Virus record (IMG/VR): IMGVR_UViG_3300031873_000001
Span: 62,001-126,000 of that record
DNA from: a virus
Length of the DNA stretch: 64,000 bases
Direction: 5' to 3' (one strand)
Shown one piece after another: positions 2,664 through 35,212 of the stretch. Position numbers and translations under genes: made by a program. Within the stretch, counting starts at the first letter, position 1. The number at the start of each line of letters is the position of its first letter. The notes below the pieces were generated by a model, which was not told where the DNA came from, made no database searches, and saw nothing but the letters and a program-made list of their open reading frames with translations.

Positions 2664-3000
2664 TGTTAGGCAGGGAGGGGCCTGTGGTGACCCCCGAGCG
2701 GTTTAACTCCGCATGTTTGTAAGGGCGAGCAGGTACTCTAATTGAAATCGTGGAATCCAAAATTAACGAACGGATTCCCAAATTCCCTCCCTGCCTGGAA
2801 TTATAAAGGGCGCGGCGCCGTCATGCGGGCGGTGCGATCAAGTCGGGATTATCTCTACTGGCAAGTGGGGAGTGAGCCCCGGACGTCGCGCTCGATGATA
2901 TCGTGGGGAGCTGACGACTGCCGAGAAGGGACTGCCGTGCCCGGCGACGGTCTCGGATCAGCTGAAGCACTCCCCACGCAGGAATCATAAGGAGGATACG
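2664..3000 (+). ncRNA. Non-coding stretch with two long inverted repeats
   Basis: 337 bp without a convincing gene. It holds a perfect 11-bp inverted repeat (GGCAGGGAGGG 2669-2679 with CCCTCCCTGCC 2785-2795) and a perfect 9-bp one (TGGGGAGTG 2866-2874 with CACTCCCCA 2968-2976), each enclosing about 90-105 nt. Two separate structured RNA domains are plausible. No promoter was recognised directly upstream. Confidence 0.4.
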
Positions 3001-3219
3001 ATGAACGTGACGTTAGAGCAGATTGAAAAGATGGAGACGTTCAAGCCTCTTGAGCGTTGCGAGTCGTCTCGGGCGGAAGATCGGGAATGCCAGGGCTTCT
3101 TGAGGCTAGCTCAGGTGCGACGGGCGAAGGATGCTTCTCATGCGGTCGTGGTTCGGGTCTGTGATGCCTGTGGCCGGAAGCAGGAATCCCACATGGGCTT
3201 CTTTAAGGCGTCATTATGA
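3001..3219 (+). CDS. Small Cys-containing protein, 72 aa
   Basis: A strong AAGGAGG site precedes the ATG. Contains a CDACG knuckle and earlier cysteines (RC, ECQ), suggesting a zinc site. The stop overlaps the next start. Function not recognised. Confidence 0.6.
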   Translation: MNVTLEQIEKMETFKPLERCESSRAEDRECQGFLRLAQVRRAKDASHAVVVRVCDACGRKQESHMGFFKASL

Positions 3220-3812
3220 GGGGACGAACCATCGCGCTTAATAAGACCCAAGAAAGCGACCGAAGGTGGGTTAGAGAAAATAGGGATAAGATTAATAAGT
3301 GGCACCGAAGGTGGCGCGAGAAGAATCCCGAAAGAGTTAGGATTTATGAACAGGCGCGTAGGGCTCGGGAATATGCCAGCGAAGGAACGTTTACTCTGAG
3401 AGAGTGGAAGTTATTGAAGGTTATATATGGCTATCGTTGTCCTGTTTGTGGTGAGAGTGAACCAGAAATTAAACTTACGGTAGACCATATTATTCCACTG
3501 ATAAAGCATGGAAGTAACTTTATAGAAAATATTCAACCTCTCTGCCTGAAATGTAATATACGTAAGGGCGCAGAGGTCTGGAAGGTCTTGCCGAATGGTC
3601 AGAAGATTTTTTTCGACCTTCAAACTATAAACAACGGAAATACTATGAGGGCAAAAAGAATGGAAACGTCTCAACAGGTTCTTCGAGATTGGAAGGCAAT
3701 AATGACGACATGGCCATCCAGGGGGATACCGGGTAGCCCGGCTACCCCCCTGGACGCCTTCCAGGAGGGCAGGAAAGCCCCCTGGGTGCGAGAAGGGGGG
3801 TCGGGTCGATGA
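3216..3812 (+). CDS. HNH homing-type endonuclease
   Basis: 198 aa. The HNH core is clear: CPVCGE, then LTVDHIIPL with the catalytic His pair region, then ENIQPLCLKCN. A basic region rich in Arg/Trp precedes it. The first 450 bp are much more AT-rich than the neighbours, a sign of a mobile gene. The last 30 or so codons run through a strong hairpin (3717-3754) and GC-rich sequence, so the natural C-terminus may be longer than in the original gene. No duplicated neighbour gene end was found here, unlike the other endonucleases of the window. Confidence 0.8.
   Translation: MRGRTIALNKTQESDRRWVRENRDKINKWHRRWREKNPERVRIYEQARRAREYASEGTFTLREWKLLKVIYGYRCPVCGESEPEIKLTVDHIIPLIKHGSNFIENIQPLCLKCNIRKGAEVWKVLPNGQKIFFDLQTINNGNTMRAKRMETSQQVLRDWKAIMTTWPSRGIPGSPATPLDAFQEGRKAPWVREGGSGR
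3717..3754. repeat. Strong hairpin, terminator-like
   Basis: GGGTAGCC c GGCTACCC (3731-3747) is nested inside TCCAGGGGG (3717-3725) and CCCTGGA (3748-3754). There is no T-run. It lies inside the 3' end of the HNH reading frame. Confidence 0.6.
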
Positions 3813-6930: not shown

Positions 6931-6961
6931 CATTTAACGAAACGAGAAAGGACATGGCGCA

Positions 6962-7114
6962 ATGGAGGGCATTTACATGCTCAAGGGAGCAGGAGGAACT
7001 CCTGAGAGGATCCCGCATCAAGTATGCCCGTATCAATTCCTCAGAGGTTCAGGTTCCGGAGGGGGATGCCCAACGGGTTGCGGGGCTTCTCTGCTCGGGG
7101 CCGTGGAGCAATGA
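6962..7114 (+). CDS. Short Gly/Cys-rich peptide, 50 aa
   Basis: The ATG at 6962 is well spaced from AAAGGA at 6947-6952, whereas the ATG at 6954 is too close. It encodes MEGIYMLKGAGG... with the segment GSGSGGGCPTGCGASLLG. The stop at 7112 is one base before the E2 ATG at 7116. It lies in another frame from the E2 gene, where a longer open frame could hide it. It could be a Ubl target, a metal-binding peptide or merely a coupling leader. Confidence 0.5.
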   Translation: MEGIYMLKGAGGTPERIPHQVCPYQFLRGSGSGGGCPTGCGASLLGAVEQ

Positions 7115-7115
7115 T

Positions 7116-8423
7116 ATGAGCACCGCCAACGATATCGCCTTTCCCCCGATCACGGGTCGGAGGGATCGCAGGGACGCCGTAGAGGCGCCCAAGAAGCCAG
7201 CGCCGGCACCGGGGCCCCGGTTTATCATTCCCAATCTCGAGAACGCCGATGGGATGTTCTCGTGGCTCAACAAGTTTGCCGGGCTCAAGGCGGAGGTGAT
7301 CATCCCCCATGCGGAGACGCCTCCCAAGAATGTTCGGATCGACGTGGATCAGTTCGTCGATGAGAGGTTCCGGATTTTCGTTCTGGCCTTTCCGGATGCC
7401 GAGGCCGGGAACGTAGTTAAGAAGGGAACCCGGGAACGGTTCACCGTCCTGGGTCGGGATTTCAAGATGGTGTCCGGGGAGGAGGACTGTCTCGAGCTGT
7501 CTAACCCTAAAGCCTTCACGGATAAGGGATGGAAGATCATGACCGACGATCAGGGGGCCGCCCTGGCTCTCTGGAAGGATCGGAATCTATTCTTCCTGTG
7601 GGATATCGCCCACCGGAAAGACCTGAGCGGGGTCGAGCTCGAGGACAAGGTCAACCTATCGAAGTATATCGTCTTACTGTGGCTGTCGGACGTTAAGGAT
7701 CCCGAGCCCCTCAAGAAGTGGGTTGAGGAAGTTAAGTCCAGGTTCTCAAAGGATTTCGTGGTCGGTCCGATCCTACTTGATGCGCTGAAGGCCCGGCATA
7801 ATACGGAGGTCGAGAAGGTCGGTGCCGCCCTGAAGGACTTGAAGGGGAAGATCGATCAGGCCGCCCGGACGCTTCGCCTGCACTACGACGAGCGGCACAC
7901 CCTTGAGATCACTCTCGAGATTCACAAGACCCTGTCCGGGAAGGTCGATCAGATGTTCAAGGAGCAGATCGAAGCCCTTAGAGATCATCCTAAGATCGAC
8001 CGGATCAGGTTCATTGCGGCAGATGGCCGGGGAGATAACAACATGCGGTTGGAGGTCGTGACCAAGCCGATCTCCTGGCAGGACTGGTGGCTCGGGCAGT
8101 ATCAGTTCACGGTTCCTCTGGCGGAGGGGGCCCATCAGGTCATCGTGACCAATCTCTATCCCCCGCCATCGGGACGGCCTCACCCTCACATCAAGACGCC
8201 GGACAACGTCTGCTGGGGGAATTCCGGGTCGACGGTCCAGGAGCTCCTTTCCGGGATGAGGTTCTTCGAGCTCATCGATCTGATGGTGGGGATCGTGCAG
8301 TCTGTGACGCCCTCGGACGGATGGGGACAGACGATCTCGGAGTGGAAGGATAATTCGGTTCAAAGCAGGTACGTGAAGATTTTCGGTAAGGTTTCTAAAT
8401 CAAAAACGGAGGATGCGAGATGA
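7116..8423 (+). CDS. E2-like conjugating enzyme with long N-terminal region
   Basis: The ATG at 7116 has GGAG seven bases upstream and sits one base after the short peptide's stop. Of 435 aa, the last 120 form a UBC fold: YPPP, then H356-P-H358, then the expected catalytic cysteine C366 in NVCWG, then helices. The first 300 residues are a separate region with a helical middle, not recognised. Expected role: accept activated Ubl from the E1 and pass it on. No RING or other E3 is seen, so the N-terminal region may select targets. Confidence 0.8.
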   Translation: MSTANDIAFPPITGRRDRRDAVEAPKKPAPAPGPRFIIPNLENADGMFSWLNKFAGLKAEVIIPHAETPPKNVRIDVDQFVDERFRIFVLAFPDAEAGNVVKKGTRERFTVLGRDFKMVSGEEDCLELSNPKAFTDKGWKIMTDDQGAALALWKDRNLFFLWDIAHRKDLSGVELEDKVNLSKYIVLLWLSDVKDPEPLKKWVEEVKSRFSKDFVVGPILLDALKARHNTEVEKVGAALKDLKGKIDQAARTLRLHYDERHTLEITLEIHKTLSGKVDQMFKEQIEALRDHPKIDRIRFIAADGRGDNNMRLEVVTKPISWQDWWLGQYQFTVPLAEGAHQVIVTNLYPPPSGRPHPHIKTPDNVCWGNSGSTVQELLSGMRFFELIDLMVGIVQSVTPSDGWGQTISEWKDNSVQSRYVKIFGKVSKSKTEDAR

Positions 8424-9052
8424 AAACTAGGAGGACGGACGACGACGTTGTTGGGGTGCCGTCGTTGAAGATTACCCTCAAGGCGTGGCGTAAAATCCTG
8501 CTCTTCACCCAGGAGACGGACGTGGAGGTGGCCGGGCTCGGGACGGTCAAGATGCAGGGCAACAAACCCATCATCGACGACGTGATGGTTTTCAAGCACG
8601 AGAATCGCAGTGCGGCGGCGGCGGACCTCGACCCGCAGGATATCGCCGATGAGTTCTCCCGGCTGATGGAGGCGAAGCAGGACACCGGGAAGTATCGTCT
8701 GTGCTGGCATAGCCATGTGAATATGCCAGCGTCCTTCAGCGGGACGGACAGGGCCTGCATGAATAGCCTTGCCGATCTCTCGGAGTGGTTCCTGTGGATC
8801 GTGGTCAACAAGAGCGGGGAATATTCGGCGCAGATCGAAGTCTACTCCCCGACCAGGTTCAGAGCGGAGGCCAAGCTCGACATTCTCTTCGACGAGTACG
8901 ACAAGGGCTTGATCGCCGGGGTGAAGCAGGAGATGACGGAGAAACTTTTTCGTTCTACGGAGAAGGGCGAAGAGGACTTTGAAGAAACTCCTGCGGTGGA
9001 GGGGTTGATCGAAGCCTCGAAGACCGGGTCGCAGGTCCTGGAGGGCCCATGA
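8420..9052 (+). CDS. JAB/JAMM metallopeptidase (deubiquitinase-like)
   Basis: 210 aa. The zinc JAMM set is complete: E36 in VEVAG, H97-S-H99, S107 and D110 (HxH-x7-S-x2-D). Proteins of this family cleave isopeptide bonds to, or trim tails of, Ubl proteins. The Ubl here already ends in Gly, so removal of Ubl from targets seems more likely than maturation. Start overlaps the E2 stop; a GGAGGATGCGAGATG leader precedes it. Confidence 0.85.
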   Translation: MKTRRTDDDVVGVPSLKITLKAWRKILLFTQETDVEVAGLGTVKMQGNKPIIDDVMVFKHENRSAAAADLDPQDIADEFSRLMEAKQDTGKYRLCWHSHVNMPASFSGTDRACMNSLADLSEWFLWIVVNKSGEYSAQIEVYSPTRFRAEAKLDILFDEYDKGLIAGVKQEMTEKLFRSTEKGEEDFEETPAVEGLIEASKTGSQVLEGP

Positions 9053-9132
9053 CCACTCCGTCTACCATGAACCGGGACTTCTGGCGGCAGACGGACTTCT
9101 TCGATCCCATGAAGACGCCTGTGACTGCATAG
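9049..9132 (+). pseudogene. Orphan first exon-like piece of the E1 gene
   Basis: The ATG overlaps the JAB stop, the place where E1 would be expected to start. It encodes 27 residues, MTTPSTMNRDFWRQTDFF and onward, then stops. The intact E1 at 9555 starts with almost the same peptide (MNRDFWRQTDFFNPEKTPVSA) but with different synonymous codons. This is the original E1 start, cut off by the insertion of the endonuclease gene at 9148. Confidence 0.85.
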
Positions 9133-9147
9133 GAGAAAAGGAGAGAA

Positions 9148-9567
9148 ATGAGAGATTTCAAGTATGCGCACCCGGAAACTACGAAACATCATTACTATGC
9201 AAAAAATAGGGAGCGCATACTAGAGGCGCAGAAGGCTTTGCGTCCTGGATATAACACAGATATCGTATGGAGGAGAAGAATAAAAGAGCTGGGCATAGCT
9301 GATCCTCTAAAATTTTACGAGTCTGAACTTTGCAAGCAGGGCGGAGTGTGTAAAATTTGTCACGAACCACCAGAGAACGGAGTGCGGTTGTGTATTGACC
9401 ACGAGGAAGATTTTGACCACACCGGATATGTTCGGACGGTCAAAATCCGTGGACTTCTACACTATGAATGCAATCTCGGACTGGGGAACTTTCGCCACGA
9501 CCCCATATTGCTACGTAATGCCGCTGATTATTTAGGTCAAGGAGGTGAGTTGAAATGCAGAGCATGA
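9148..9567 (+). CDS. Endonuclease VII-type homing endonuclease in the E1 gene
   Basis: 139 aa of the phage recombination endonuclease VII fold: CKICHEPP, then LCIDHEEDFDHTG, then IRGLLHYECNLGLGNFRHD and an LLRNAADYL helix. These enzymes have Cys4 zinc and an H-D/N active site. The gene is AT-rich against GC-rich neighbours. It overlaps the replacement E1 start by 13 nt. Confidence 0.85.
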   Translation: MRDFKYAHPETTKHHYYAKNRERILEAQKALRPGYNTDIVWRRRIKELGIADPLKFYESELCKQGGVCKICHEPPENGVRLCIDHEEDFDHTGYVRTVKIRGLLHYECNLGLGNFRHDPILLRNAADYLGQGGELKCRA

Positions 9568-10259
9568 ATCGTGATTTTTGGCGTCAGACAGACTTTTTTA
9601 ATCCCGAAAAGACTCCAGTCTCCGCCACGGTCATAGGCGTCGGAGGGATCGGGTCGTTCACCGCGCTCGCTCTCGGGAAGCTGGGGATCAAGAGCCTCGT
9701 GCTCGTCGATCCGGACGTTGTGGAAGCCCACAACGTTCCTAATCAGCTCTTCCGGATGAATGACGTGGAGGAGGCAAAGGTCGTTGCCGCCGCTCGCTTA
9801 ATTAAGGAGCTTACGGGCATTGAGGAGATCAAGACCTGGGTCATGAGGTTTCCTCCGAAGGATAACCCGTACCCGAAGGATTTGATCACGACCGACCTCG
9901 TGGTCTGCGGGGTGGACACAATGCAAGGTCGGAAGGAGATCTGGGAGTCCGGGATCCGGCGCAACCCCGGGGTGAAGCTGTTTATCGACGGGCGGCTCGG
10001 GGGTCAACAGTTACGCATCCTGTCCGTCAAGGATACCGTCTCGACGGAGTCCATCGAACGCTACGAGCAGACGATCGTGCCGGATGAGACGGTTCCCGAC
10101 CTGCCCTGCACGGCCAGGGCGATCATCGACGTGGGCTTTCTCATCGCCTCTTACATCACCCGGATCGTCCGGAGGCACTTCACCGGACAGCCCATCCCGT
10201 TCGAGACCGTAGCCGACGTGAGCTTCCAGCTTCAGGATCAGCTCTTTGAGTGGGAGTGA
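9555..10259 (+). CDS. E1-like activating enzyme (ThiF/PRTRC type)
   Basis: 234 aa, AAGGAGG site. The ATP-binding loop is VIGVGGIGS, followed by LVLVDPDVVEAHNVPNQLF, where family members have D-x-D...N..R/Q, and VCGVDTM for magnesium. A PCTARA segment near the C-terminus resembles ThiF relatives. It should adenylate the terminal Gly of the Ubl. The first 25 codons are AT-rich and recoded relative to the orphan piece at 9049, showing the front of the gene came with the endonuclease. Confidence 0.85.
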   Translation: MQSMNRDFWRQTDFFNPEKTPVSATVIGVGGIGSFTALALGKLGIKSLVLVDPDVVEAHNVPNQLFRMNDVEEAKVVAAARLIKELTGIEEIKTWVMRFPPKDNPYPKDLITTDLVVCGVDTMQGRKEIWESGIRRNPGVKLFIDGRLGGQQLRILSVKDTVSTESIERYEQTIVPDETVPDLPCTARAIIDVGFLIASYITRIVRRHFTGQPIPFETVADVSFQLQDQLFEWE

Positions 10260-19098: not shown

Positions 19099-20556
19099 AT
19101 GCCCCGAAAAGTTATAATCAGCGATATGGCATGGCTCGAGCTCAAGACGCTCGATCCACTGCTTATCCACCGGCTCAAGAACGAGCTGACGATCTACCCG
19201 CATGTTTCTCCCCGGTTCAAGCCTGCGGCTAAGGACTACCATCCGATCATCCTGTGGAAGGAGGATCGGGGGTTCTTAGGCGTTCCTCGGGCTTACTTCC
19301 TGCAGAGGGCTAAGACCCTCTACGATATCGAATGGAAGGTGTCCGATGGGGGGAACTTGTCTCGGAGGATCGTAAATAAGTTTGCCCCAAACATGAGGGA
19401 GGAGCAGGGGCCGGTGGTGCAGGCGGCTCTCGACAGACTTCAAGGGAAGGGAGATATCTCATTTACGATTGGGGGAATCATCCGTTGCCGGAAGGGGTTC
19501 GGGAAGACCCTTCTCGGATTGGAGGTGGCCTATCGTCTTGGGATGAGGACGCTGATTATCGTGCAGACGAATCTCCTGGCCGCACAGTGGGAGAGGGCGA
19601 TCAAGGAGTGGTATCCCGGGGCGAAGATTGGCAAGATCCAGGGGAAGGATATTGATTACAACAAGAAGGACTTCACAGTCGCCATGCTTCAGACGCTTCT
19701 CGAATCGCACTCGAGAAAATTCACACCTCTCTTCTACTGGGAGTTCGGGACGGTCATTACGGACGAGGTAAACCGACTGGGGGCCCCGGAGTGGTCCAGA
19801 GTTGCTCCAATGTTCAAGTGCAAATACCGGATCGGGCTCACGGCAACCCTCGATCGGTTCGATCACTGTGAGAAGGTCTTTCTTTACCACATCGGGCAGA
19901 TCATAGCCGGGACGTCGGAGGAGCAGGATGCCGAAGCCTTGCAACCTAAAATCCTGCGTGTCTTTACGGACTTCGAGATTTTTAGGTCGTCGGGCTTTGA
20001 CCCCGACAGGATGTCCAGGGATACCCTTCTTAAGCCGCTCGTCCGGGATGGGGAGAGGAGTAATTTGATCGTTCGGAAGATCATGGAGGCTTACGAGAAG
20101 GATAGAAATATCCTCGTCCTAACCGAGCGGCTAGAGCAGATTAAGATTCTGATGGAGCTTTTGAAGCAAGCCCTTTTGCTTAGGGGGAGTGAGACTTCGG
20201 AGGTCGGCGTTATGATCGGGGGGATGAAGATCGATGAGATTGAGAAGTCCTCCCTCTGTCGGATAATCCTGGCGACGTTCCAATACTTTTCAGTCGGAGG
20301 GGATGTCCCCCGGCTCGATACCCTTTTCTTCGCCACGCCCAAGATCGGAATCGACCAGAGCATCGGGCGTATCCTTCGGGAGATGCCGGAGAAAGTTTTG
20401 GATGATCACCACACGCCAATAGTAGTGGATTTTTGTGATTGGAGAATGCCTGTCTTTAGGAAAGATGCTATTCGGCGTATGAGTTATTATAGGGAACATG
20501 GATGGGTTGTGGGAGATACTAATAAACCTAAATCTTTTGGGGGTGAATCATGTTAA
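19099..20556 (+). CDS. SF2 helicase (UvsW/SNF2-related)
   Basis: 485 aa. Walker A CRKGFGKTLLGLE (about residue 131), then TLIIVQTNLLAAQW, Walker B TDEVNRLG (DEVN instead of DExH), GLTATLDR, and C-terminal motifs VLTERLEQ and QSIGRILRE. Likely branch migration or recombination-dependent replication. The last 45 codons are AT-rich and recoded; an older version of the same end survives downstream of the HNH gene at 21133. Confidence 0.8.
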   Translation: MPRKVIISDMAWLELKTLDPLLIHRLKNELTIYPHVSPRFKPAAKDYHPIILWKEDRGFLGVPRAYFLQRAKTLYDIEWKVSDGGNLSRRIVNKFAPNMREEQGPVVQAALDRLQGKGDISFTIGGIIRCRKGFGKTLLGLEVAYRLGMRTLIIVQTNLLAAQWERAIKEWYPGAKIGKIQGKDIDYNKKDFTVAMLQTLLESHSRKFTPLFYWEFGTVITDEVNRLGAPEWSRVAPMFKCKYRIGLTATLDRFDHCEKVFLYHIGQIIAGTSEEQDAEALQPKILRVFTDFEIFRSSGFDPDRMSRDTLLKPLVRDGERSNLIVRKIMEAYEKDRNILVLTERLEQIKILMELLKQALLLRGSETSEVGVMIGGMKIDEIEKSSLCRIILATFQYFSVGGDVPRLDTLFFATPKIGIDQSIGRILREMPEKVLDDHHTPIVVDFCDWRMPVFRKDAIRRMSYYREHGWVVGDTNKPKSFGGESC

Positions 20557-21134
20557 GTGATAAACCGTCGAGAGGACTTGAATGGTGGAAGGGATTATCC
20601 CTTAAGAGAAGGAGGGAATATTTGAGAAAACATAGAAGTTATATAAAGATTCTTAAGGAGAAAGGATTATGCATAGATGATGGTAGGGAAAAAGTGGTTG
20701 AGGGGCATCTGGTGTGCGCTAGACATCTCCGGCTTAGACGCTTAAGGGGTCGGAAACGCTACCAAGACTTTACACCCGCCCAAAAGAGGTCGCACTATCT
20801 CGGGAATGTAAAGTATAGGAAAGACAATAAGGAGAGGCTCGCTGAAATTCGGAACCAGCGGAAGCGAGAAGTTAAGCGGGAAACTCTTAACGCCTATGGC
20901 GGAAAATGCATTTGTTGTGGGGAGGCCCGGTTAGAATTTTTGACTCTTCATCACGTGGATGGAGGTGGGGCCAAGCACAGGAAGAAAATCGGTTCTTGGT
21001 CTCGGGGTGGAGCATTTTATAGGTGGCTGAAGAAGAGAAGGTTCCCCAAGGTTCCCCGGCTTGTTGTGGAGTGTATGAATTGTCATTTAGCTATAGATCA
21101 ATATGGGTATTGCCCCCACAAGAAAAAGACGTGA
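20550..21134 (+). CDS. HNH homing endonuclease at the helicase 3' end
   Basis: 194 aa. Zinc/HNH residues: CICCGE, LTLHHVDG, then ECMNCHLAIDQYGYCPH. A very basic N-terminal half. The AT-rich composition starts inside the end of the helicase gene and continues through this gene, marking one imported segment. Immediately downstream lies the displaced original helicase end. Confidence 0.85.
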   Translation: MLSDKPSRGLEWWKGLSLKRRREYLRKHRSYIKILKEKGLCIDDGREKVVEGHLVCARHLRLRRLRGRKRYQDFTPAQKRSHYLGNVKYRKDNKERLAEIRNQRKREVKRETLNAYGGKCICCGEARLEFLTLHHVDGGGAKHRKKIGSWSRGGAFYRWLKKRRFPKVPRLVVECMNCHLAIDQYGYCPHKKKT

Positions 21135-21255
21135 CTTCGTCGACTGGCGAATGCCCGTTTACAGGAAAGACGCTATCCGAAGATCTGAATATTACCGGGA
21201 GCACGGTTGGGTAATTGGGGATACCGGGAAGCCAAAATCTTGGGGTGGCGCCTAA
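21133..21255 (+). pseudogene. Displaced original C-terminus of the SF2 helicase
   Basis: Without a start codon, this frame encodes DFVDWRMPVYRKDAIRR...YYREHGWVIGDTGKPKSWGGA and then TAA. The working helicase ends with DFCDWRMPVFRKDAIRR...YYREHGWVVGDTNKPKSFGG. The remnant has the GC-rich codon choice of the phage; the working copy is AT-rich, like the endonuclease. Confidence 0.9.
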
Positions 21256-24997: not shown

Positions 24998-25072
24998 GGC
25001 GGGGTGGAGCAATAGCAACTCGTCAGGCCCATAACCTGAAAATTCTCGGTGCGAATCCGAGCCCCGCTCCCA
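24998..25072 (+). tRNA. tRNA-fMet (CAT), C33
   Basis: Acceptor GGCGGGG/CCCCGCT with G-U at 1-72, as initiators have a weak first pair; disc C, CCA encoded. Body GGGGTGGAGCA resembles bacterial initiator tRNA. Anticodon loop CCCATAA (C33). T-loop TGCGAAT is odd, lacking T54-T55. Confidence 0.8.
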
Positions 25073-25083
25073 GATTAAGAAGA

Positions 25084-25689
25084 TTATAGTAATCCGTTTT
25101 CATGTTCCCAGTGATGGTTAGGGCAGAGATAAGAAAGGTTCTTGATATTGTTAATTTCAGATATGAAAGCCGTGTCCGGGAAGTCTGCGACCCTTTTATT
25201 GTGAGAGCATTCAACGTGTTTTCGATATCCACAGATTCTACATTTTGCTTTAATCCCGGATTTCCTTATGATCAGTCTTGCCATGCGAGCTATTTTGCTC
25301 CTAGCTAATTGCCAAGTGTTCTTTGATTTAAAGAATTCGCCTTTGGTTTTGCTCGCAATGCTTCTTTCGAACTTGATAATTTGAAGGCAGTCATTGCAAA
25401 ACCGTCTTTTGAAATTATATTGAATGGGATATGAACCGTGGCATCGTTCACATTCATAGGAGTATGTTTTGTGGGTTCGGCGTCTTCGGGCATTATTGAA
25501 AATTGCGGCACAAGTGTGGTTGCAGAAGCATTTGGATTTCGTTTCTCCAACCTTGTGGCCATCTGGAACCTCGATAACCTTATGGCATTGAAGGCAGACT
25601 GAGGGATGCTTGTAATATTTTTTGAGGGCCCGTTCTCTGAGGATTTTAGCTGTGGCTATGCCACCGGCGGACTGCCATACTTTTCTCAT
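25084..25689 (-). CDS. HNH endonuclease inside a split tRNA, antisense
   Basis: 201 aa on the minus strand, the only confident minus-strand gene here. Zinc fingers CLQCHK, CFCNHTC, CERCHG, CNDC and CRICGY lead to an HNH end (VECSHNKRVADFPD...LCPNHHWEHENG). AT-rich. It lies between tRNA 5' halves plus an intact fMet tRNA and the leftover 3' half. Confidence 0.85.
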   Translation of the reverse strand: MRKVWQSAGGIATAKILRERALKKYYKHPSVCLQCHKVIEVPDGHKVGETKSKCFCNHTCAAIFNNARRRRTHKTYSYECERCHGSYPIQYNFKRRFCNDCLQIIKFERSIASKTKGEFFKSKNTWQLARSKIARMARLIIRKSGIKAKCRICGYRKHVECSHNKRVADFPDTAFISEINNIKNLSYLCPNHHWEHENGLL

Positions 25690-25734
25690 GGGTATCTCCG
25701 ATTTAGGTTACGGTTAAATCATAGCACAGTAGGG

Positions 25735-25789
25735 TTACGGAAAGCAAGTCCTTGTCGGATTCTGGGTGCGACTCCCAGCCCCGCAACCA
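25735..25789 (+). pseudogene. 3' half of a split tRNA (fMet-like)
   Basis: T-arm CTGGG TGCGACT CCCAG, then CCCCGCA, A and CCA. Very similar to the 3' end of the intact fMet tRNA, including the unusual TGCGA T-loop. Its acceptor pairs perfectly with TGCGGGG at 24934-24940. Left end approximate. Confidence 0.65.
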
Positions 25790-25802
25790 GGACTTATAAA
25801 AG

Positions 25803-25891
25803 GGCGGGCTGATGAAATGGTAGACAAGTGAGGCTTAAACCCTCATGGCCTTTACATAGCCGTCTGGGTCCGAATCCCAGGCCCGCCACCA
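25803..25891 (+). tRNA. tRNA-Leu (TAA)
   Basis: Acceptor GGCGGGC/GCCCGCC, A, CCA. Anticodon loop CTTAAAC with U33. Long variable arm as expected for Leu. Confidence 0.95.
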
Positions 25892-25892
25892 T

Positions 25893-25969
25893 AGGAGCGT
25901 AGTTCAATGGATCAGAACGCACGGCTCCAACCCGTGTTGATAGGGGTTCAAATCCTCTCGCTCCTGCCA
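25893..25969 (+). tRNA. tRNA-Trp (CCA)
   Basis: Acceptor AGGAGCG/CGCTCCT, G73, CCA. Loop CTCCAAC, U33. Confidence 0.95.
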
Positions 25970-25975
25970 AAAATT

Positions 25976-26051
25976 GGGGATGTATTTCAATGGCGAGAAT
26001 GCCTGCCCTACAAGCAGGAGATTGGAGGTTCGAGTCCTCCCGTCCCCACCA
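25976..26051 (+). tRNA. tRNA-Val (TAC), C33
   Basis: Acceptor GGGGATG/CGTCCCC, A, CCA. Stem CCTGC/GCAGG, loop CCTACAA, so C33. Confidence 0.93.
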
Positions 26052-26052
26052 G

Positions 26053-26128
26053 AGGCCCTTAGCTCAAATGGAAGAGCGCCGGTCTCATAAGCCGAAGGTT
26101 CCGGGTTCGATTCCCGGAGGGCCCACCA
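26053..26128 (+). tRNA. tRNA-Met elongator (CAT), or Ile2
   Basis: Acceptor AGGCCCT/AGGGCCC with an A-C mismatch at 1-72; CCA encoded. Loop CTCATAA, U33. Could be an Ile tRNA modified at C34; the sequence alone does not decide. Confidence 0.9.
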
Positions 26129-26131
26129 AAC

Positions 26132-26216
26132 GGGGGAGTGGTGAAATTTGGTAGACACGCTGGTTCCAGACACCAGTGCTTATGGCGTAAGGGTTCAAAT
26201 CCCTTCTCCCCCACCA
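26132..26216 (+). tRNA. tRNA-Leu (CAG), C33
   Basis: Acceptor GGGGGAG/CTCCCCC, CCA. Stem CTGGT/ACCAG, loop TCCAGAC, C33. Confidence 0.93.
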
Positions 26217-26220
26217 ATGT

Positions 26221-26295
26221 TCTGGCGTGACTCAACGGTAGAGTGCCCGCCTGTTAAGCGGGTTGTTGGAGGTTCGACTCCTCCCGCCAGAGCCA
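26221..26295 (+). tRNA. tRNA-Asn (GTT)
   Basis: Acceptor TCTGGCG/CGCCAGA, G, CCA. Loop CTGTTAA, U33. Confidence 0.95.
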
Positions 26296-26299
26296 GAAT

Positions 26300-26373
26300 G
26301 CCGATGTAGCTCAACCCGGTAGAGCAACGCACCTGTAATGCGAAGGTTGGGGGTTCGACTCCTCTCGTCGGCT
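26300..26373 (+). tRNA. tRNA-Thr (TGT), C33
   Basis: Acceptor GCCGATG/CGTCGGC; CCA not encoded. Stem CGCA/TGCG, loop CCTGTAA, C33. Confidence 0.92.
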
Positions 26374-26376
26374 TAT

Positions 26377-26449
26377 GGTGGCCGTCGTCCAACGGTAGGA
26401 CACGTGGCTGTGGCCCACGGAACAGGAGTTCGACACTCCCCGGTCACCC
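26377..26449 (+). tRNA. tRNA-His (GTG)
   Basis: Acceptor GGTGGCC/GGTCACC, C73. Loop CTGTGGC, U33. Confidence 0.93.
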
Positions 26450-26457
26450 CAAGATAT

Positions 26458-26534
26458 CGCGGCATCGCCAAGTGGCTAAAGGCGGCGGTCTGCAGAACCG
26501 CTATGCGGGGGTTCGACTCCCCCTGCCGCGTCCA
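26458..26534 (+). tRNA. tRNA-Cys (GCA)
   Basis: Acceptor CGCGGCA/TGCCGCG, T73, CCA. Loop CTGCAGA, U33. Confidence 0.95.
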
Positions 26535-26538
26535 GAAT

Positions 26539-26611
26539 GCTGGCATAGCTCAAACGGTAGAGCGTCTCTTTCGTAAGGAGAAGGTTGGGGGTTCGATGCC
26601 TCTTGCCAGCT
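26539..26611 (+). tRNA. tRNA-Thr (CGT)
   Basis: Acceptor GCTGGCA/TGCCAGC; CCA not encoded. Loop TTCGTAA, U33. Confidence 0.93.
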
Positions 26612-26633
26612 TTAACCAAAGGAGGGATGCGAG

Positions 26634-26870
26634 ATGAAGAAATCGGTTAGGTCTCACAAGAAGAAGGAGCCGGAGATTCCGGCGAGAGGGACGGTGGCCT
26701 GGGCCGACAAGCAGTTAGGCGAGCGTCAATTTAAGGCTCTGGTCGAGCGGGGAAACTCGAAGGAGAGCCTTCAAGCCTTCTGCTTCTTTGCCGGGAAGGT
26801 GGAAGGGATCATGGAAGTTCGGGGGATTCTGTCCACGGTCCGGATCCCGAAGGTCAAGAAGAAAGGGTGA
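26634..26870 (+). CDS. Small basic protein inside the tRNA array
   Basis: 78 aa with AAAGGAGGG and the GGATGCGAGATG leader seen at 8408 and 29483. Lys-rich ends, a helical middle (ERQFKALVERGNSKESLQAF). The last codons overlap the first bases of tRNA-Tyr. Function unknown. Confidence 0.65.
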   Translation: MKKSVRSHKKKEPEIPARGTVAWADKQLGERQFKALVERGNSKESLQAFCFFAGKVEGIMEVRGILSTVRIPKVKKKG

Positions 26871-26953
26871 GGTGCCAGAGTCCGGTCGATTGGGTCCGCC
26901 TGTAGAGCGGAAGCCGACAAGCCACGCAGGTTCAAATCCTGCCCTCACCACCA
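26866..26953 (+). tRNA. tRNA-Tyr (GTA)
   Basis: Acceptor GGTGAGG/CCTCACC, A, CCA; loop CTGTAGA, U33; long variable arm. Its acceptor 5' strand includes the stop codon of the upstream gene. Confidence 0.94.
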
Positions 26954-26960
26954 ATTTCAG

Positions 26961-27047
26961 GGAGAGTGTCCGGTTGGTCGAGGAAGCGGTTCCGAAAACC
27001 GTTACCGTTAACTGCGGTCGAGGGTTCGATTCCCTCACTCTCCGCCA
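26961..27047 (+). tRNA. tRNA-Ser (CGA), C33
   Basis: Acceptor GGAGAGT/ACTCTCC, G, CCA. Loop TCCGAAA, C33. Long variable arm. Confidence 0.93.
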
Positions 27048-27052
27048 TAGAT

Positions 27053-27139
27053 GGAGGGCGATCCGGCTGGTACGAGGAGGCAGTCCTGAAAACTGCTGGC
27101 GTGTAAAAGCGCTCGGGGGTTCGAGTCCCCTGCCCTCCG
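27053..27139 (+). tRNA. tRNA-Ser (TGA), C33
   Basis: Acceptor GGAGGGC/GCCCTCC, G; CCA not encoded. Stem GCAGT/ACTGC, loop CCTGAAA, C33. Confidence 0.93.
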
Positions 27140-27147
27140 CTGTAATG

Positions 27148-27235
27148 GGAGACGTGATCGAGAGGCTTAAGATGGCTGTCCGGAAAGCAGTCGAGCTGAA
27201 AAGCTCCCCGGGTTCAAATCCCGGCGTCTCCGCCA
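27148..27235 (+). tRNA. tRNA-Ser (GGA), C33
   Basis: Acceptor GGAGACG/CGTCTCC, G, CCA. Loop CCGGAAA, C33. All three UCN serine tRNAs carry C33, while the AGY one (27654) does not. Confidence 0.93.
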
Positions 27236-27238
27236 TTC

Positions 27239-27314
27239 TGGGGGATCATCTAATTGGATAGGATACGAGGCTCTGACCCTCGGTATCTGGGTTCGAATCC
27301 CAGTCCCTCAGCCA
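27239..27314 (+). tRNA. tRNA-Gln (CTG)
   Basis: Acceptor TGGGGGA/TCCCTCA, G, CCA. Loop CTCTGAC, U33. Confidence 0.94.
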
Positions 27315-27317
27315 AAC

Positions 27318-27401
27318 GTCGGGCTGGCGGAACTTGGTATACGCGAATGGCTCAAACCCATTTGAGCGATCGTCGGGGTTCGAATCCCCGGCCCGACACC
27401 A
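27318..27401 (+). tRNA. tRNA-Leu (CAA)
   Basis: Acceptor GTCGGGC/GCCCGAC, A, CCA. Loop CTCAAAC, U33. Confidence 0.95.
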
Positions 27402-27404
27402 CGA

Positions 27405-27475
27405 TGGGGGATAGGCCAACGGTAGGCCGCAAGGCTTTGAACCTTGTGATGAGGGTTCGACTCCTTCTCCCTCAG
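27405..27475 (+). tRNA. tRNA-Gln (TTG)
   Basis: Acceptor TGGGGGA/TCCCTCA, G; CCA not encoded. Loop CTTTGAA, U33. Confidence 0.94.
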
Positions 27476-27481
27476 CTTAAT

Positions 27482-27566
27482 GCCGAGATGGTGAAACTTG
27501 GTAGACACGCACGTTCGAGGGGCGTGTGCCTTTGGCGTGAGGGTTCAAATCCCTCTCTCGGCACCA
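27482..27566 (+). tRNA. tRNA-Leu (GAG), C33
   Basis: Acceptor GCCGAGA/TCTCGGC, A, CCA. Loop TCGAGGG, C33. Both CUN leucine tRNAs have C33; the UUR ones have U33. Confidence 0.92.
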
Positions 27567-27571
27567 GATTA

Positions 27572-27647
27572 GCCGGAGTAGCTCAAATAGTAGAGCGCAG
27601 GTCTGAAGAGCCTGGCGTAGGCGGCGCGATACCGCCCTCCGGCACCA
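27572..27647 (+). tRNA. tRNA-Phe (GAA)
   Basis: Acceptor GCCGGAG/CTCCGGC, A, CCA. Loop CTGAAGA, U33. T-loop CGCGATA lacks the usual TTC. Confidence 0.92.
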
Positions 27648-27653
27648 GATCCC

Positions 27654-27741
27654 GGAGCGATGGCCGAGTGGTCGAAGGCGACGGTTTGCTAAACCGTTGG
27701 ACTCACGGGTCCCGAATGTTCGAATCATTCTCGCTCCGCCA
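27654..27741 (+). tRNA. tRNA-Ser (GCT)
   Basis: Acceptor GGAGCGA/TCGCTCC, G, CCA. Loop TTGCTAA, U33. Confidence 0.94.
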
Positions 27742-27749
27742 TAAGACGA

Positions 27750-27825
27750 GCGGGTGTAGCTCAGATGGTAGAGCGCCTGTATGCCACGCAGGAGGTCGCG
27801 GGATCGAAACCCGTCACCCGCTCCA
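27750..27825 (+). tRNA. tRNA-Gly (GCC)
   Basis: Acceptor GCGGGTG/CACCCGC, T73, CCA. Loop ATGCCAC, U33. Confidence 0.94.
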
Positions 27826-27829
27826 GATC

Positions 27830-27901
27830 GCAGGTGTGATGCAATGGTAGCAGACCTGGCTTTTAACCAGGGGGTTGGAGGTTCGACTCCTCTCACCTGC
27901 A
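27830..27901 (+). tRNA. tRNA-Lys (TTT)
   Basis: Acceptor GCAGGTG/CACCTGC, A; CCA not encoded. Loop CTTTTAA, U33. Confidence 0.94.
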
Positions 27902-27904
27902 CTA

Positions 27905-27979
27905 GCGGGCGTAGCTCAATGGTAGAGTACCAGATTCTTAATCTGGGTGTTGAGGGTTCCAATCCCTCCGCCCGCACCA
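27905..27979 (+). tRNA. tRNA-Lys (CTT)
   Basis: Acceptor GCGGGCG/CGCCCGC, A, CCA. Loop TTCTTAA, U33. Confidence 0.94.
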
Positions 27980-27985
27980 AGATAC

Positions 27986-28060
27986 GCAGGCACAGCTTAG
28001 GGGTCAAGCATCCGGCTGATATCCGGACGAGCACAGGTTCGATTCCTGTTGCCTGCACCA
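27986..28060 (+). tRNA. tRNA-Ile (GAT)
   Basis: Acceptor GCAGGCA/TGCCTGC, A, CCA. Loop CTGATAT, U33. Confidence 0.94.
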
Positions 28061-28066
28061 GAACGG

Positions 28067-28143
28067 ACGCCCGTAGTTTAACTGGACAGAACGCCAGGCT
28101 ACGAACCTGGAGGCTGGGGGTTCGACTCCTCTCGGGCGTACCA
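28067..28143 (+). tRNA. tRNA-Arg (ACG)
   Basis: Acceptor ACGCCCG/CGGGCGT, A, CCA. Loop CTACGAA, U33. Confidence 0.95.
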
Positions 28144-28146
28144 ATT

Positions 28147-28222
28147 GCGCCTGTAACTCAATGGATCGAGTATCGGGTTTCTACCCCGAGAGTTGAGGGT
28201 TCGACTCCCCCCAGGCGCGCCA
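28147..28222 (+). tRNA. tRNA-Arg (TCT)
   Basis: Acceptor GCGCCTG/CAGGCGC, G, CCA. Loop TTTCTAC, U33. Confidence 0.95.
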
Positions 28223-28224
28223 AC

Positions 28225-28300
28225 ATGCCCGTAGCTCAATGGATAGAGCGTCTGCGTCCTAAGCAGAGGGCTGAGGGTTCGAGTCCCTCCGGGCGTACCA
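28225..28300 (+). tRNA. tRNA-Arg (CCT)
   Basis: Acceptor ATGCCCG/CGGGCGT, A, CCA. Loop GTCCTAA, U33. Sequence close to the next tRNA, so the pair likely arose by duplication. Confidence 0.95.
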
Positions 28301-28309
28301 GAAGATCGT

Positions 28310-28386
28310 ATGCCCGTAGCTCAAATGGATAGAGCGATGGCCTCCGGAGCCGTAGGTTGGAGGTTCGAGTCCTCTCGGGCATACCA
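28310..28386 (+). tRNA. tRNA-Arg (CCG)
   Basis: Acceptor ATGCCCG/CGGGCAT, A, CCA. Loop CTCCGGA, U33. Confidence 0.95.
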
Positions 28387-28398
28387 AAGGAGGAAGCG

Positions 28399-28569
28399 AT
28401 GTGGGCATTGATACAGCATTACTGGTGGATCCCGGTCGGGGTGATCATTCTCTTTGGGATTGAAAGAGGAGCCGATCGAAGGGCCAAGGAGGAGCATGCC
28501 CACCGGGAGGGGCATTGTTTGGATCATTACTGTTCGATCTGTCGGGACCGTATCGATGATGAATTTTAG
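28399..28569 (+). CDS. Small membrane protein with C-terminal Cys/His cluster
   Basis: 56 aa from the ATG at 28399 after AAAGGAGG. One N-terminal membrane segment ([15 protein letters not shown]) and a tail with [12 protein letters not shown]. Sits inside the tRNA array. Function unknown. Confidence 0.65.
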
Positions 28570-28575
28570 GCCATT

Positions 28576-28649
28576 GCGGTTGTGGTGAAGCGATATCATG
28601 TCTGCCTTCCAAGCAGAGGTCGCGGGTTTGATTCCCGCCAGCCGCACCA
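28576..28649 (+). tRNA. tRNA-Gly (TCC)
   Basis: Acceptor GCGGTTG/CAGCCGC, A, CCA. Loop CTTCCAA, U33. T-loop TTTGATT and a D-loop without a clear GG. Confidence 0.9.
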
Positions 28650-28652
28650 TGT

Positions 28653-28694
28653 GGGACCGTCGTCTAACGGGAGGACTACTGGTTTGCACCCGTT
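28653..28694 (+). pseudogene. 5' two-thirds of a split tRNA-Ala (TGC)
   Basis: GGGACCG, D-arm GTC TAACGGGA GGAC, then an anticodon arm with loop TTTGCAC (TGC, U33). The sequence then leaves the tRNA pattern. A matching T-arm and acceptor (GAGGG TTTGACT CCCTC, CGGCTCC, ACCA) lies at 29447-29474. Confidence 0.65.
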
Positions 28695-28723
28695 GACTTC
28701 GGTAAGCCTTCCTATGCTATAAT
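28693..28723 (+). promoter_or_regulatory. Possible promoter within a hairpin
   Basis: TTGACT (28693-28698), a long 19-nt spacer and TGCTATAAT (TATAAT 28718-28723), an extended -10. It could drive the endonuclease frame at 28763. The -10 lies in the left arm of the inverted repeat at 28711-28754. Confidence 0.45.
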
Positions 28724-28754
28724 TGCTTGAAGTTTCAAGTAGTTATAGCATAGG
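28711..28754. repeat. 44-nt near-perfect hairpin
   Basis: CCTATGCTATAA (28711-28722) pairs with TTATAGCATAGG (28743-28754), and inside it CTTGAA (28726-28731) pairs with TTCAAG (28734-28739). It marks the left side of the inserted segment in tRNA-Ala and may be an element end or a regulator of the endonuclease. Confidence 0.75.
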
Positions 28755-28762
28755 AGAATGAC

Positions 28763-29359
28763 ATGAAGCAAGATTTATGGGTGCTGGAAGGAGGAATCGA
28801 ACCTCCAGCCGCTACGTTAGGAAAACGAAGGCGAGCAAAGAGGACGGCGTGTGGAACTTGTAAGAAAGGTTTCCTTTAGAGGAAAAGCGGGACGAAACGG
28901 TTTTGCTCGAGAAAGTGTCGGGACATATCGCTTCAGAATAGAGAAGAGCTAAAGTGCTTTACTTGCGGGCGGAAATTCTTTAGGCCAATAGGTCATATCA
29001 AAAAGTCGAAACATGGAATTTTCTTTTGTCGCAGGAAGTGCAAGGACAAAGGGCAAAGATTAGAAGGCGGATGCAGGGAAATATGGCCTTCTCATTATGG
29101 CAAGATAGATGCTACGGGAATCGACTACCGGAGCAAGATGGAGAGGGAACTCAAGCGAGGGTGCGTGGATTGCGGGGAGAAAACGCATTACCTTTTAACC
29201 GTTCATCATATCGATGGAGACAGGGGAAGCCGCAAGAAATCAAACTGGGAAGTGGTCTGTTGGAATCATCATGCTAAAAGGCATTTAAGAAAGACGGCCA
29301 ATGGATGGGTGGTGGCTTGGGGATGCTTAACTCCGAGACGACTTTTGAAGAAGATTTGA
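28763..29359 (+). pseudogene. HNH endonuclease frame broken by one in-frame TAG
   Basis: From the ATG at 28763 the frame reads MKQDLWVLEGGIEPPAATLG... through a zinc finger start (ACGTCKKGF) to TAG at 28877-28879, and continues in the same frame (RFCSRKC, CFTCGRKF, FFCRRKCKD) to a full HNH end (CVDCGEKTHYLLTVHHIDG...VVCWNHHAKRH) at 29359. The stop splits one Cys4 finger. The first codons are the reverse complement of a tRNA T-arm. Either a recent knock-out or a read-through stop. Confidence 0.75.
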
Positions 29360-29368
29360 AAACCGTGT

Positions 29369-29443
29369 GGGCTGGTGGTGTAATTGATAGCATCGTAGAC
29401 CTGCAATCTATGGGTCGGGGTTTGAGTCCCCGCCGGTCCACCA
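29369..29443 (+). tRNA. tRNA-Ala (TGC), C33
   Basis: Acceptor GGGCTGG/CCGGTCC, A, CCA. Stem TAGA/TCTA, loop CCTGCAA, C33. T-loop TTTGAGT. An intact replacement next to the split tRNA-Ala. Confidence 0.92.
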
Positions 29444-29446
29444 AAT

Positions 29447-29474
29447 GAGGGTTTGACTCCCTCCGGCTCCACCA
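29447..29474 (+). pseudogene. 3' part of the split tRNA-Ala
   Basis: T-arm GAGGG TTTGACT CCCTC, acceptor CGGCTCC, A, CCA. The acceptor pairs with GGGACCG at 28653 with one mismatch. Confidence 0.65.
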
Positions 29475-29496
29475 AAAATTAAACGGAGGATGCGAG

Positions 29497-29700
29497 ATGG
29501 ATCAGGCAACGAAGGAGCGGATCGACGGGATGGACTACGAGTCGATGCTCCGGCTGTGGAGGAATGCTCCGGTTGGGGAGCCGTTGTTCCAGGGGGAGAC
29601 GGGGGATTACTTTTCTAAGGTCATGGCAGAGAAGCGGGACGCCCTTCCCGAAGGGGCCCACGTTGCGGCCAGCAAGAAGATAGGATGGACGGGGGCGTAG
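29497..29700 (+). CDS. Unknown small protein, 67 aa
   Basis: ATG after ACGGAGGATGCGAG, the leader shared with 8420 and 26634. An acidic/aromatic helical protein. Its last codons overlap tRNA-Asp. Function unknown. Confidence 0.6.
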   Translation: MDQATKERIDGMDYESMLRLWRNAPVGEPLFQGETGDYFSKVMAEKRDALPEGAHVAASKKIGWTGA

Positions 29701-29766
29701 TTCAGGTGGGAGAACGCCTGATTGTCGATCAGGAGGTCGCGGGTTCGAGTCCGGCCTCCCCGACCA
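29690..29766 (+). tRNA. tRNA-Asp (GTC)
   Basis: Acceptor CGGGGGC/CTCCCCG, A, CCA; a mismatch in the acceptor and one in the T-stem. Loop TTGTCGA, U33. Last tRNA of the array. Confidence 0.88.
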
Positions 29767-32401: not shown

Positions 32402-33397
32402 ATGAAGAGCATAGCCGTCTTAGGACCTACTGGAATGCTCGGGTCGATGGTCTTGGATTACTTCTACCAGGGCGTTCTCGATGGGGCGTGTCATCTGGTG
32501 GCCATAGGTCGGTTTCCAATCCGGGAAGAGGATCCCGAACCCGATCTCTACGTTAAGCTGAAGGAGTCCTACCCCGGAGTGGAGTTCCGACACCTGGATG
32601 CCGAGCTTTGTGTGTCGGGAGATGTCGGAGAATCTCTAAAGGGCGTGGATTGGGTCGTGAATTGCATCGGGGTGATCAACAAGCATATCGTAGAAAATGA
32701 CCGGGAGAGCGTCGAGCGGGCGGTTCGGGTGAATGCGATCTTCCCGTACCTCCTTGCGGTCACCTCGGAGTGGGAGAGCTTCCGGGTGATGCAGATTAAC
32801 ACGGACTGCGTGTTCTCGGGGCAGACAGGATTATACTCAGAGAACGCTCTCCATGATGCTACCGACGTCTACGGCAAGACCAAGAGCCTCGGGGAAGTTT
32901 CCTCGGATCGGTTTATCAATCTCCGGTGTTCTCTTGTCGGCCCGGAGCTCAGGACCCACCAGTCCTTGCTCGACTGGTTTCGGAGCCAGGAACGGGGGGC
33001 CAGCGTAAACGGTTTCGTTGGCCATACCTGGAACGGGATAACATCCCTGCACTTCGCCAAGATCTGCTGGGGGATCATGTGGGACTATCGCACGTTGAAG
33101 TTCCGGGGGGTCCAGCACGTCGTCCCCCGGGACCGGATCAATAAGTTTGAGCTCTTGAAGTGTTTTGCTACGGCTTATCATCGGGAGGACATCCGGATCG
33201 TACCGCATCAGGGCAGGGCTCCACATGAGATGGGTTTGGACCGATCGCTGTCAACCGTGTATGCGAATATCAACCGTGAACTATGGAGGCTCGCAGGCTA
33301 CGAAGAGATTCCTACGATTCCGAAGATGGTGGAGGAGCTTGCTTCCTACCATCCGAGGCTTCTGGACAAATCTCTCTCGGCAATCGTCTTGCCATGA
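32402..33397 (+). CDS. RmlD-like NAD(P)H sugar reductase
   Basis: 331 aa Rossmann short-chain reductase: VLGPTGMLGSMV for nucleotide binding, NTDCVFSG and YGKTKSLGE with the catalytic Y-x3-K. Similar to dTDP-4-dehydrorhamnose reductases. Probably makes or modifies a nucleotide sugar for the adjoining glycosyltransferases. Confidence 0.8.
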   Translation: MKSIAVLGPTGMLGSMVLDYFYQGVLDGACHLVAIGRFPIREEDPEPDLYVKLKESYPGVEFRHLDAELCVSGDVGESLKGVDWVVNCIGVINKHIVENDRESVERAVRVNAIFPYLLAVTSEWESFRVMQINTDCVFSGQTGLYSENALHDATDVYGKTKSLGEVSSDRFINLRCSLVGPELRTHQSLLDWFRSQERGASVNGFVGHTWNGITSLHFAKICWGIMWDYRTLKFRGVQHVVPRDRINKFELLKCFATAYHREDIRIVPHQGRAPHEMGLDRSLSTVYANINRELWRLAGYEEIPTIPKMVEELASYHPRLLDKSLSAIVLP

Positions 33398-34940: not shown

Positions 34941-35212
34941 GAGCGCCTCTCGTTAAGGAAAGTTTATGGGAGCTTAGTAATTTACCGAGCATCGTTATAG
35001 ATCGAAAAGACAGGGAGGGAACGATTGCATATATCAAAAAGATATTAGGAGTTGTCCAGCGGGATGATTTGGTGCGGTTGTTTATTCTAGATTTGAACGA
35101 GGTGAGTGACTGGATTAAAGTATGCGAGGTATATGGTAGAATGGCCAATAGAAGATTCAGGGCTGTCTTGGCTAGAAAGCGATCGGAATGGGATAGGAGG
35201 TTTCATCGATGA
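34937..35212 (+). CDS. Unknown protein, 91 aa
   Basis: Starts with ATG overlapping the endonuclease stop. Charged alpha-helical protein. No family recognised. Confidence 0.55.
   Translation: MRAPLVKESLWELSNLPSIVIDRKDREGTIAYIKKILGVVQRDDLVRLFILDLNEVSDWIKVCEVYGRMANRRFRAVLARKRSEWDRRFHR

Follow-up and report, generated by a model that had tools for sequence, protein, structure and literature searches.

A phage endonuclease VII gene inserted in an E1 gene together with a recoded gene start: a probable splicing-free homing element

Introduction

The locus considered here raises the question of how an E1/ThiF gene can be broken near its start by a nuclease gene and still be read from a start codon to its end. 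An earlier note, made by a model from the letters and their open reading frames, proposed that the old E1 start was stranded upstream of an endonuclease VII gene, that the element brought its own start in different codons, and that this recoding keeps the host gene working and hides it from the enzyme. Our comparison with a sister phage and with other nuclease loci leads to the view that this is probably a homing element that does without splicing and keeps its host gene alive by re-encoding one of its ends, with the cleavage and homing themselves being inferences.

The E1 locus and its parts

The E1 locus lies in the window, i.e., the whole 64,000-nucleotide stretch analysed here, inside a virus record of 159,536 bases. 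The gene order is JAB, stranded E1 start, endonuclease VII, and E1/ThiF, and its parts are as follows.

8420-9052, plus strand: JAB-domain gene (PF14464, E 4e-9), upstream of E1, in a gene order shared with sister L003
9049-9132, plus strand: stranded original E1 start, 27 codons, with 97% DNA identity over 66 nt to the sister's uninterrupted E1 start
9130-9626, plus strand: inserted element, 497 bp, GC 0.455, left edge possibly 9129
9148-9567, plus strand: endonuclease VII-type homing nuclease (putative), 139 aa (PF02945, E 5.5e-11; phrog_2914, E 3.8e-17)
9541-9548, plus strand: ribosome-binding-site-like GGAGGTGA, within the endonuclease gene and ahead of the new E1 start
9555-9626, plus strand: recoded E1 start brought in by the element, making up the final 72 bases of the insert
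9627-10259, plus strand: original E1/ThiF gene body, colinear with the sister

The stop of the JAB gene overlaps the original E1 start codon, from which the frame at 9049-9132 is translated as MTTPSTMNRDFWRQTDFFDPMKTPVTA and then ends at a TAG that was created at the insertion junction. This TAG runs into AGGAGAAAAGGAG, a ribosome-site-like stretch serving the nuclease gene, so that the insert consists, in order, of a stop/ribosome-site leader, the endonuclease VII gene, and the recoded E1 start. The 3' end of the nuclease gene, GGAGGTGAGTTGAAATG, provides the new E1 with both its ribosome site and its start; nuclease gene and E1 share 13 bases. The working E1/ThiF gene (9555-10259; PF00899, E 1.3e-18) starts MQSMNRDFWRQTDFFNPEKTPVSA.

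When the whole record was searched with E1, exactly two places were found, the gene itself and, at 82% over 22 aa (E 1.3e-7), the stranded start. Over 21 codons, the recoded and stranded starts share 6 identical codons, 12 differ synonymously and 3 non-synonymously, and the recoding ends exactly at the insertion point. The descriptive claims of the earlier note thus held: the stranding of the start at 9049-9132 is correct to the base, the peptide MNRDFWRQTDFF does recur in other codons at the E1 start 500 bases downstream, and the recoded start does resemble the endonuclease in its AT-rich composition (GC 0.44 and 0.45, respectively, vs 0.57 for the stranded start).

The wider surroundings (window 6954-10259) hold an E2-like gene, with an HPHI...CWG motif and no Pfam match, followed by JAB and E1/ThiF. 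We infer a phage ubiquitin-like conjugation cassette, with the resemblance to E2 resting on the motif.

The nuclease

The E1-linked protein scores 42.7 bits against PF02945, for which the curated cut-off is 23.6, and in the PDB, T4 endonuclease VII and Hpy99I come up as matches to a profile of the three endonuclease VII proteins that these phages encode. Residues C68, C71, D84, H85, D90, H91 and N109 are conserved with the two other endonuclease VII proteins, and the second cysteine pair has His in its first position (HYEC); activity is inferred. A search of IMG/VR for close relatives of this nuclease found none.

The empty site in the sister phage

The only close relative in IMG/VR is L003 (genome G001; 160,139 bases), whose E1 is 89-90% identical. 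It has one uninterrupted E1, reading MTTPSTMNRDFWRQTDFFDPMKTPVTATVIGVGG, in the GC-rich codons of the stranded copy, to which it is 97% identical over the 66 nt compared, vs 73% for the working copy. The stranded copy tracks the sister (L015) to position 1692, with one mismatch in the last 80 bases, and the working E1 regains identity from position 1694; therefore, 497 bases were inserted at one point (9129/9130-9626), with an ambiguity of at most one base. The comparison shows that the unit entered an intact E1 at a single point, left the old start upstream and restored the frame with a new one.

The earlier note had asked for relatives lacking the insert, and the one that exists has the predicted uninterrupted E1 in the codons of the stranded copy, with the insert joined at a single point. 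Neither of the findings named as refuting the idea was met: the short frame at 9049 is not an independent conserved gene, and no uninterrupted E1 with the AT-rich codons was found, either in the sister or by an IMG/VR profile search with E1. Since this search returned nothing beyond the one sister, the donor of the recoded start cannot be named.

Eight insertions in two sister genomes

The sister genomes, compared on genome stretches, are colinear, with approximately 83-92% DNA identity over most of their aligned length. Cases of the same build were found by comparing ORF ends with their own flanking DNA, followed by inspection by eye and alignment to the sister. Eight such insertions are present in the two genomes, every one empty in the other, four at gene starts and four at gene ends, and they employ endonuclease VII (three), HNH (two), LAGLIDADG (two) and Vsr-like (one) nucleases. 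Among the unmatched stretches of at least 250 bases, those that bear a nuclease and have a clean empty partner are exactly these eight.

Gene start: E1, endonuclease VII
Gene start: glycosyltransferase, endonuclease VII, carried by G001
Gene start: DUF932 gene, HNH
Gene start: nucleoside deoxyribosyltransferase-like gene, Vsr-like nuclease, carried by G001
Gene end: ResIII helicase, HNH
Gene end: glycosyltransferase, endonuclease VII
Gene end: Dam methylase, LAGLIDADG
Gene end: tail sheath, LAGLIDADG related to I-SceI (E 1.9e-5)

The Vsr-like assignment relies on sequence motifs only, with no library match. Further features of the window belonging to these cases are listed below.

19099-20556, plus strand: ResIII-type helicase (PF04851, E 2.1e-19), its end recoded from about 20413 in a three-way alignment with the sister
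20550-21134, plus strand: HNH nuclease of the helicase-end element (phrog_2255, E 7e-7)
21136-21255, plus strand: stranded original helicase end, 86% identical to the sister in DNA vs 58% for the working end
33283-34440, plus strand: glycosyltransferase gene (PF00534, E 7.6e-18), its last codons recoded from about 34389
34437-34940, plus strand: endonuclease VII gene (PF02945, E 9.5e-20), its frame entering the stranded glycosyltransferase end
41190-41320, plus strand: empty site for the sister's element at the start of another glycosyltransferase

The helicase-end element is the mirror image of the E1-start case. At the glycosyltransferase, the stranded end lies at 34899-34940, and 34900-34941 is 95% identical to the sister's glycosyltransferase end; because the nuclease frame enters the stranded end and uses its stop, the endonuclease VII has gained a piece of its victim as its own C-terminus. 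In the tail sheath, the last 15 residues, EFVVFQFMQKTTKAQ, are the same as in the sister, with nearly every codon different. In all cases, the nuclease gene adjoins or overlaps the recoded end. Recoding ends 0-18 bp past the insertion point, in several cases reaching into the gene body by up to 18 bases, and, to judge by the alignments, no target sequence was lost at the joins.

These parallel cases support two further claims of the earlier note, that the mobile unit combines an endonuclease with a substitute gene end and that the host gene keeps an open frame. That note had missed both the recurrence of the arrangement and the probable working role of the stranded piece as a homology arm.

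Some observations lie beside this set. The sisters carry different HNH-like genes at one and the same slot (window 2996-3808 and L014 15003-15862), and both of these overlap the start of the same next gene; the slot was left outside the eight and may have been invaded repeatedly. A leader between the stranded end and the nuclease gene is common to L008 10405-10540 and L018 8505-8640, and the elements sharing it differ in their nuclease (endonuclease VII in G001, HNH in G000). These leaders have in common ACCGGATGAGGGGGCT and a possible pseudoknot; nothing in Rfam matches them, and among the loci analysed the 16-mer is confined to these two places and the loci overlapping them. The same phage genome also has a Type-P5 twister ribozyme (RF02684) outside the window, at L018 15745-15802, and 31 tRNA genes are clustered at window 24998-29766.

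Selection on the recoded ends

For the seven gap-free cases (450 nt), identity to the sister is 91% in the stranded copies and 68% in the working copies. The codon comparison covered eleven cases and 258 codons, four cases from other phages included; recoded and stranded copies share 71 codons, 136 differ synonymously and 51 non-synonymously. The synonymous share of the changed codons is 73%, whereas 1000 neutral simulations, without selection, averaged 14% and never exceeded 22.5%, and for this reason the recoded segments are functional protein ends rather than decayed duplicates: the comparison shows that selection acted on them. Differences from the native ends are near saturation at silent positions, and in most cases the recoded ends are AT-richer, like the nucleases.

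Other phages and controls

Elsewhere in IMG/VR, 62 nuclease loci were sampled, of which 60 are related to the HNH pair. A strict filter was passed by nine of the 62, which reduce to four lineages once near-identical contigs are removed, and these unrelated HNH-carrying lineages include three clear cases and a weaker fourth: the build is clear in L065 and L044/L066-069, good though short in L062, and weaker in L050/051 (57% aa identity over 30 residues). L065 carries the build, and its relatives L184-186 are uninterrupted, directly behind the same tail gene. In L066-069, an internal deletion has removed the middle of the HNH gene, and the host start persists in both its recoded and its stranded copy (L066 3618-4254 vs L044 3384-4396), a state that, as an inference, fits what is expected of an element no longer homing. 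The host gene at the L044/L066 locus is on the strand opposite to the nuclease; empty relatives of this host gene were looked for and not found.

As a control, 204 non-nuclease ORFs of the same loci went through the same scan and gave no genuine match; the three raw matches were all repeated HNH genes. No case of the build was seen in 92 nuclease loci from other phages, of which 80, all endonuclease VII, came from IMG/VR and the other 12 (nine endonuclease VII, three HNH) from annotated phage genomes. With none in 92 loci, nearly all endonuclease VII, the build is recurrent and neither universal nor the usual habit of the endonuclease VII family, and our claim is limited to the sister phages and part of the HNH loci. 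Bacterial genomes searched with the HNH pair yielded one locus, without the build.

Candidate matches dropped on inspection were tandem methyltransferases (L043), repeated HNH genes (L027), collagen-like repeats, and tRNA genes read as protein.

Proposed mechanism

In the mechanism that we propose, the mobile unit would pair a nuclease gene with a second version of one host-gene end, diverged and synonymously recoded. The nuclease would cut at the insertion point or beside it (in the sister, GTGACTGC/TACGGTC) in an intact E1 carried by a co-infecting relative, and repair of the break from the carrier would copy nuclease and recoded start together. The homology arms would be the upstream genes plus the stranded start on one side and the E1 body on the other, the stranded end being the left half of the target as well as the left arm. 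The altered codons would stop the enzyme from cutting its own carrier, and would also stop the two copies from recombining and deleting the element; these are the least certain steps. That the recoded sequence escapes the enzyme is inferred, with no cleavage data here, and it fits the tested yeast WHO6/FBA1 system (PMC7282813).

Several results speak for the homing reading: the sister's empty allele is in the stranded codons and joined within 1 bp; the eight insertions have the same build at both gene ends and with four nuclease kinds; the stranded copies exceed the working ones in identity to the sister (91% vs 68%), with the nuclease always against the recoded end; the synonymous share of changed codons is far above neutral (73% vs 14%); L065 faces the uninterrupted L184-186, and both copies are kept in L066-069. 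The recoding overshoot of 0-18 bp also counts in its favour, compared with the conversion tracts of yeast WHO6, which overshoot the cut by only 5-14 bp (PMC7282813).

Two reservations apply, besides the reliance on sequence alone and the absence of the build from the 92 other loci. There is one close relative only and the donor is unknown, so that the recoded ends could have come from a diverged relative and not from selection for resistance. Moreover, insertion alone already splits the target, and recoding may be unneeded for immunity.

Alternative explanations

The rival that survives best, though we consider it unlikely, is passive capture, in which a single illegitimate recombination with a diverged phage brought in a nuclease and the neighbouring gene end, and the altered codons reflect phylogenetic distance only and give no protection. 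In its favour, the recoded ends are mostly AT-rich like the nucleases, the silent differences are near saturation, and free-standing phage nucleases are known to drag flanking DNA along (PMC12724721). Against it stand eight events in two sisters with the same build, no target loss seen and the nuclease always against the recoded end, as well as the absence of the build from all 204 other genes scanned.

Much less plausible is a remnant of a group I intron or intein, in which splicing would join the parts and the second start would be secondary. Many phage homing nucleases do live in introns, and a structured leader precedes two of the nuclease genes; however, a search of the E1, GT-N, DUF932, Dam, Ndt and sheath regions gave no Rfam intron, the nuclease is encoded from a start codon to a stop codon of its own, and no splicing is needed to complete the host gene. 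An intein is contradicted by the TAG stop at the left junction and the separate E1 start.

Chance similarity, tandem gene duplication or assembly error, suggested by the shortness of the duplicated stretches (11-39 aa) and by contigs that are metagenome assemblies, is all but excluded, being refuted by the sister genome and opposed by the E value of 1.3e-7 in the whole record, by the recurrence of the build at other loci and contigs with intact nuclease frames and, for misassembly, by the different codons of the two copies.

Significance

A bolder reading, which to us is as likely to fail as to hold, is that phages host a general class of splicing-free homing elements, open to any nuclease family, that swap recoded ends into the first or last codons of genes; repeated rounds would exchange gene termini between lineages, with the nuclease later decaying and the foreign end remaining. 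If true, this would be a third phage homing strategy beside introns and inteins, and a natural counterpart of "homing rescue" gene drives. The elements would explain how an essential gene, e.g., the tail sheath, can harbour a selfish nuclease without an intron or intein. They also offer a mechanism for gene-end swaps between phage lineages; this goes unnoticed in ordinary annotation, as the stranded ends fall below the length at which genes are called. In addition, sequence alone predicts, to within about 20 bp, where eight nucleases of four kinds should cut, and each natural sensitive version (stranded) lies beside a possibly resistant one (recoded).

Comparison with known systems

In the open-access literature that we searched, no report of such elements in phages was found, and reports elsewhere are not excluded. 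Recoded gene ends are not described in the relevant passages of a phage homing nuclease survey (PMC10448857), a lactococcal HNH study (PMC12724721) or a paper on a phage gene-fragment pipeline (PMC8351571), and a duplicated recoded gene end is not mentioned in those of a review of T4 mobile elements (PMC2988022). The free-standing Seg and Mob nucleases of T4-like phages are promoter-less cassettes in phage operons, spread by cutting relatives and copying flanks (PMC2988022). Our elements satisfy the criterion for a free-standing phage homing endonuclease, in that eight sites differ between sisters by the presence or absence of the nuclease, whereas Seg and Mob differ from them by lying between genes or splitting a host gene in two.

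Fungal mitochondria offer closer likenesses. Introns in Tremella carry N-terminal duplications (PMC7315562), i.e., the 5' end of a host gene is carried along with a mobile element, the difference being that they are described as fungal mitochondrial introns, several of which are no longer intron-like. The mORFs with foreign C-termini, known from Allomyces atp6 and from Glomus atp6, atp9, cox2 and nad3 (PMC3630166), resemble the phage elements in that an endonuclease ORF is inserted with a foreign gene end and the native end is left over. Glomus atp6 has the same pattern, with a leftover end 91% identical to a relative and a diverged inserted end (63.5% between copies; PMC3630166). Unlike the phage elements, mORFs are mitochondrial, mostly LAGLIDADG plus one GIY-YIG, and involve C-terminal ends.

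Like the mORFs, the WHO elements of Torulaspora and Lachancea yeasts belong by mechanism to the same kind as the phage elements: a nuclease travels with a diverged FBA1 3' end, without splicing (Coughlan et al. 2020, PMC7282813). WHO6 was shown experimentally to cut the sensitive and not the resistant FBA1 allele, and the displaced FBA1 3' end was proposed as a second homology arm (PMC7282813); by analogy, this system supports the main homing steps by experiment or close argument. The phage elements share with it a nuclease, a diverged host-gene end, an old end pushed aside, and no splicing. By mechanism we assign them to the WHO type, whose build they show: a nuclease, a diverged end that replaces the native one, and the native end displaced to the far side. 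Cleavage of native and resistance of replacement ends are only inferred here. Membership by descent, which requires an HO-like intein fold and a zinc finger, does not apply, as profiles or motifs place the nucleases in the endonuclease VII, HNH, LAGLIDADG and Vsr-like groups. The E1 element would thus, by analogy, work like WHO, yet it is no WHO gene. WHO occupies one main target, a yeast nuclear gene, at its 3' end and with HO-like intein/zinc-finger enzymes, whereas the phage elements have many targets, four nuclease kinds, and 5' as well as 3' ends. The WHO-type, splicing-free kind of homing is already known, and what is probably new is the phage host, the use of both gene ends, and the involvement of several unrelated nucleases.
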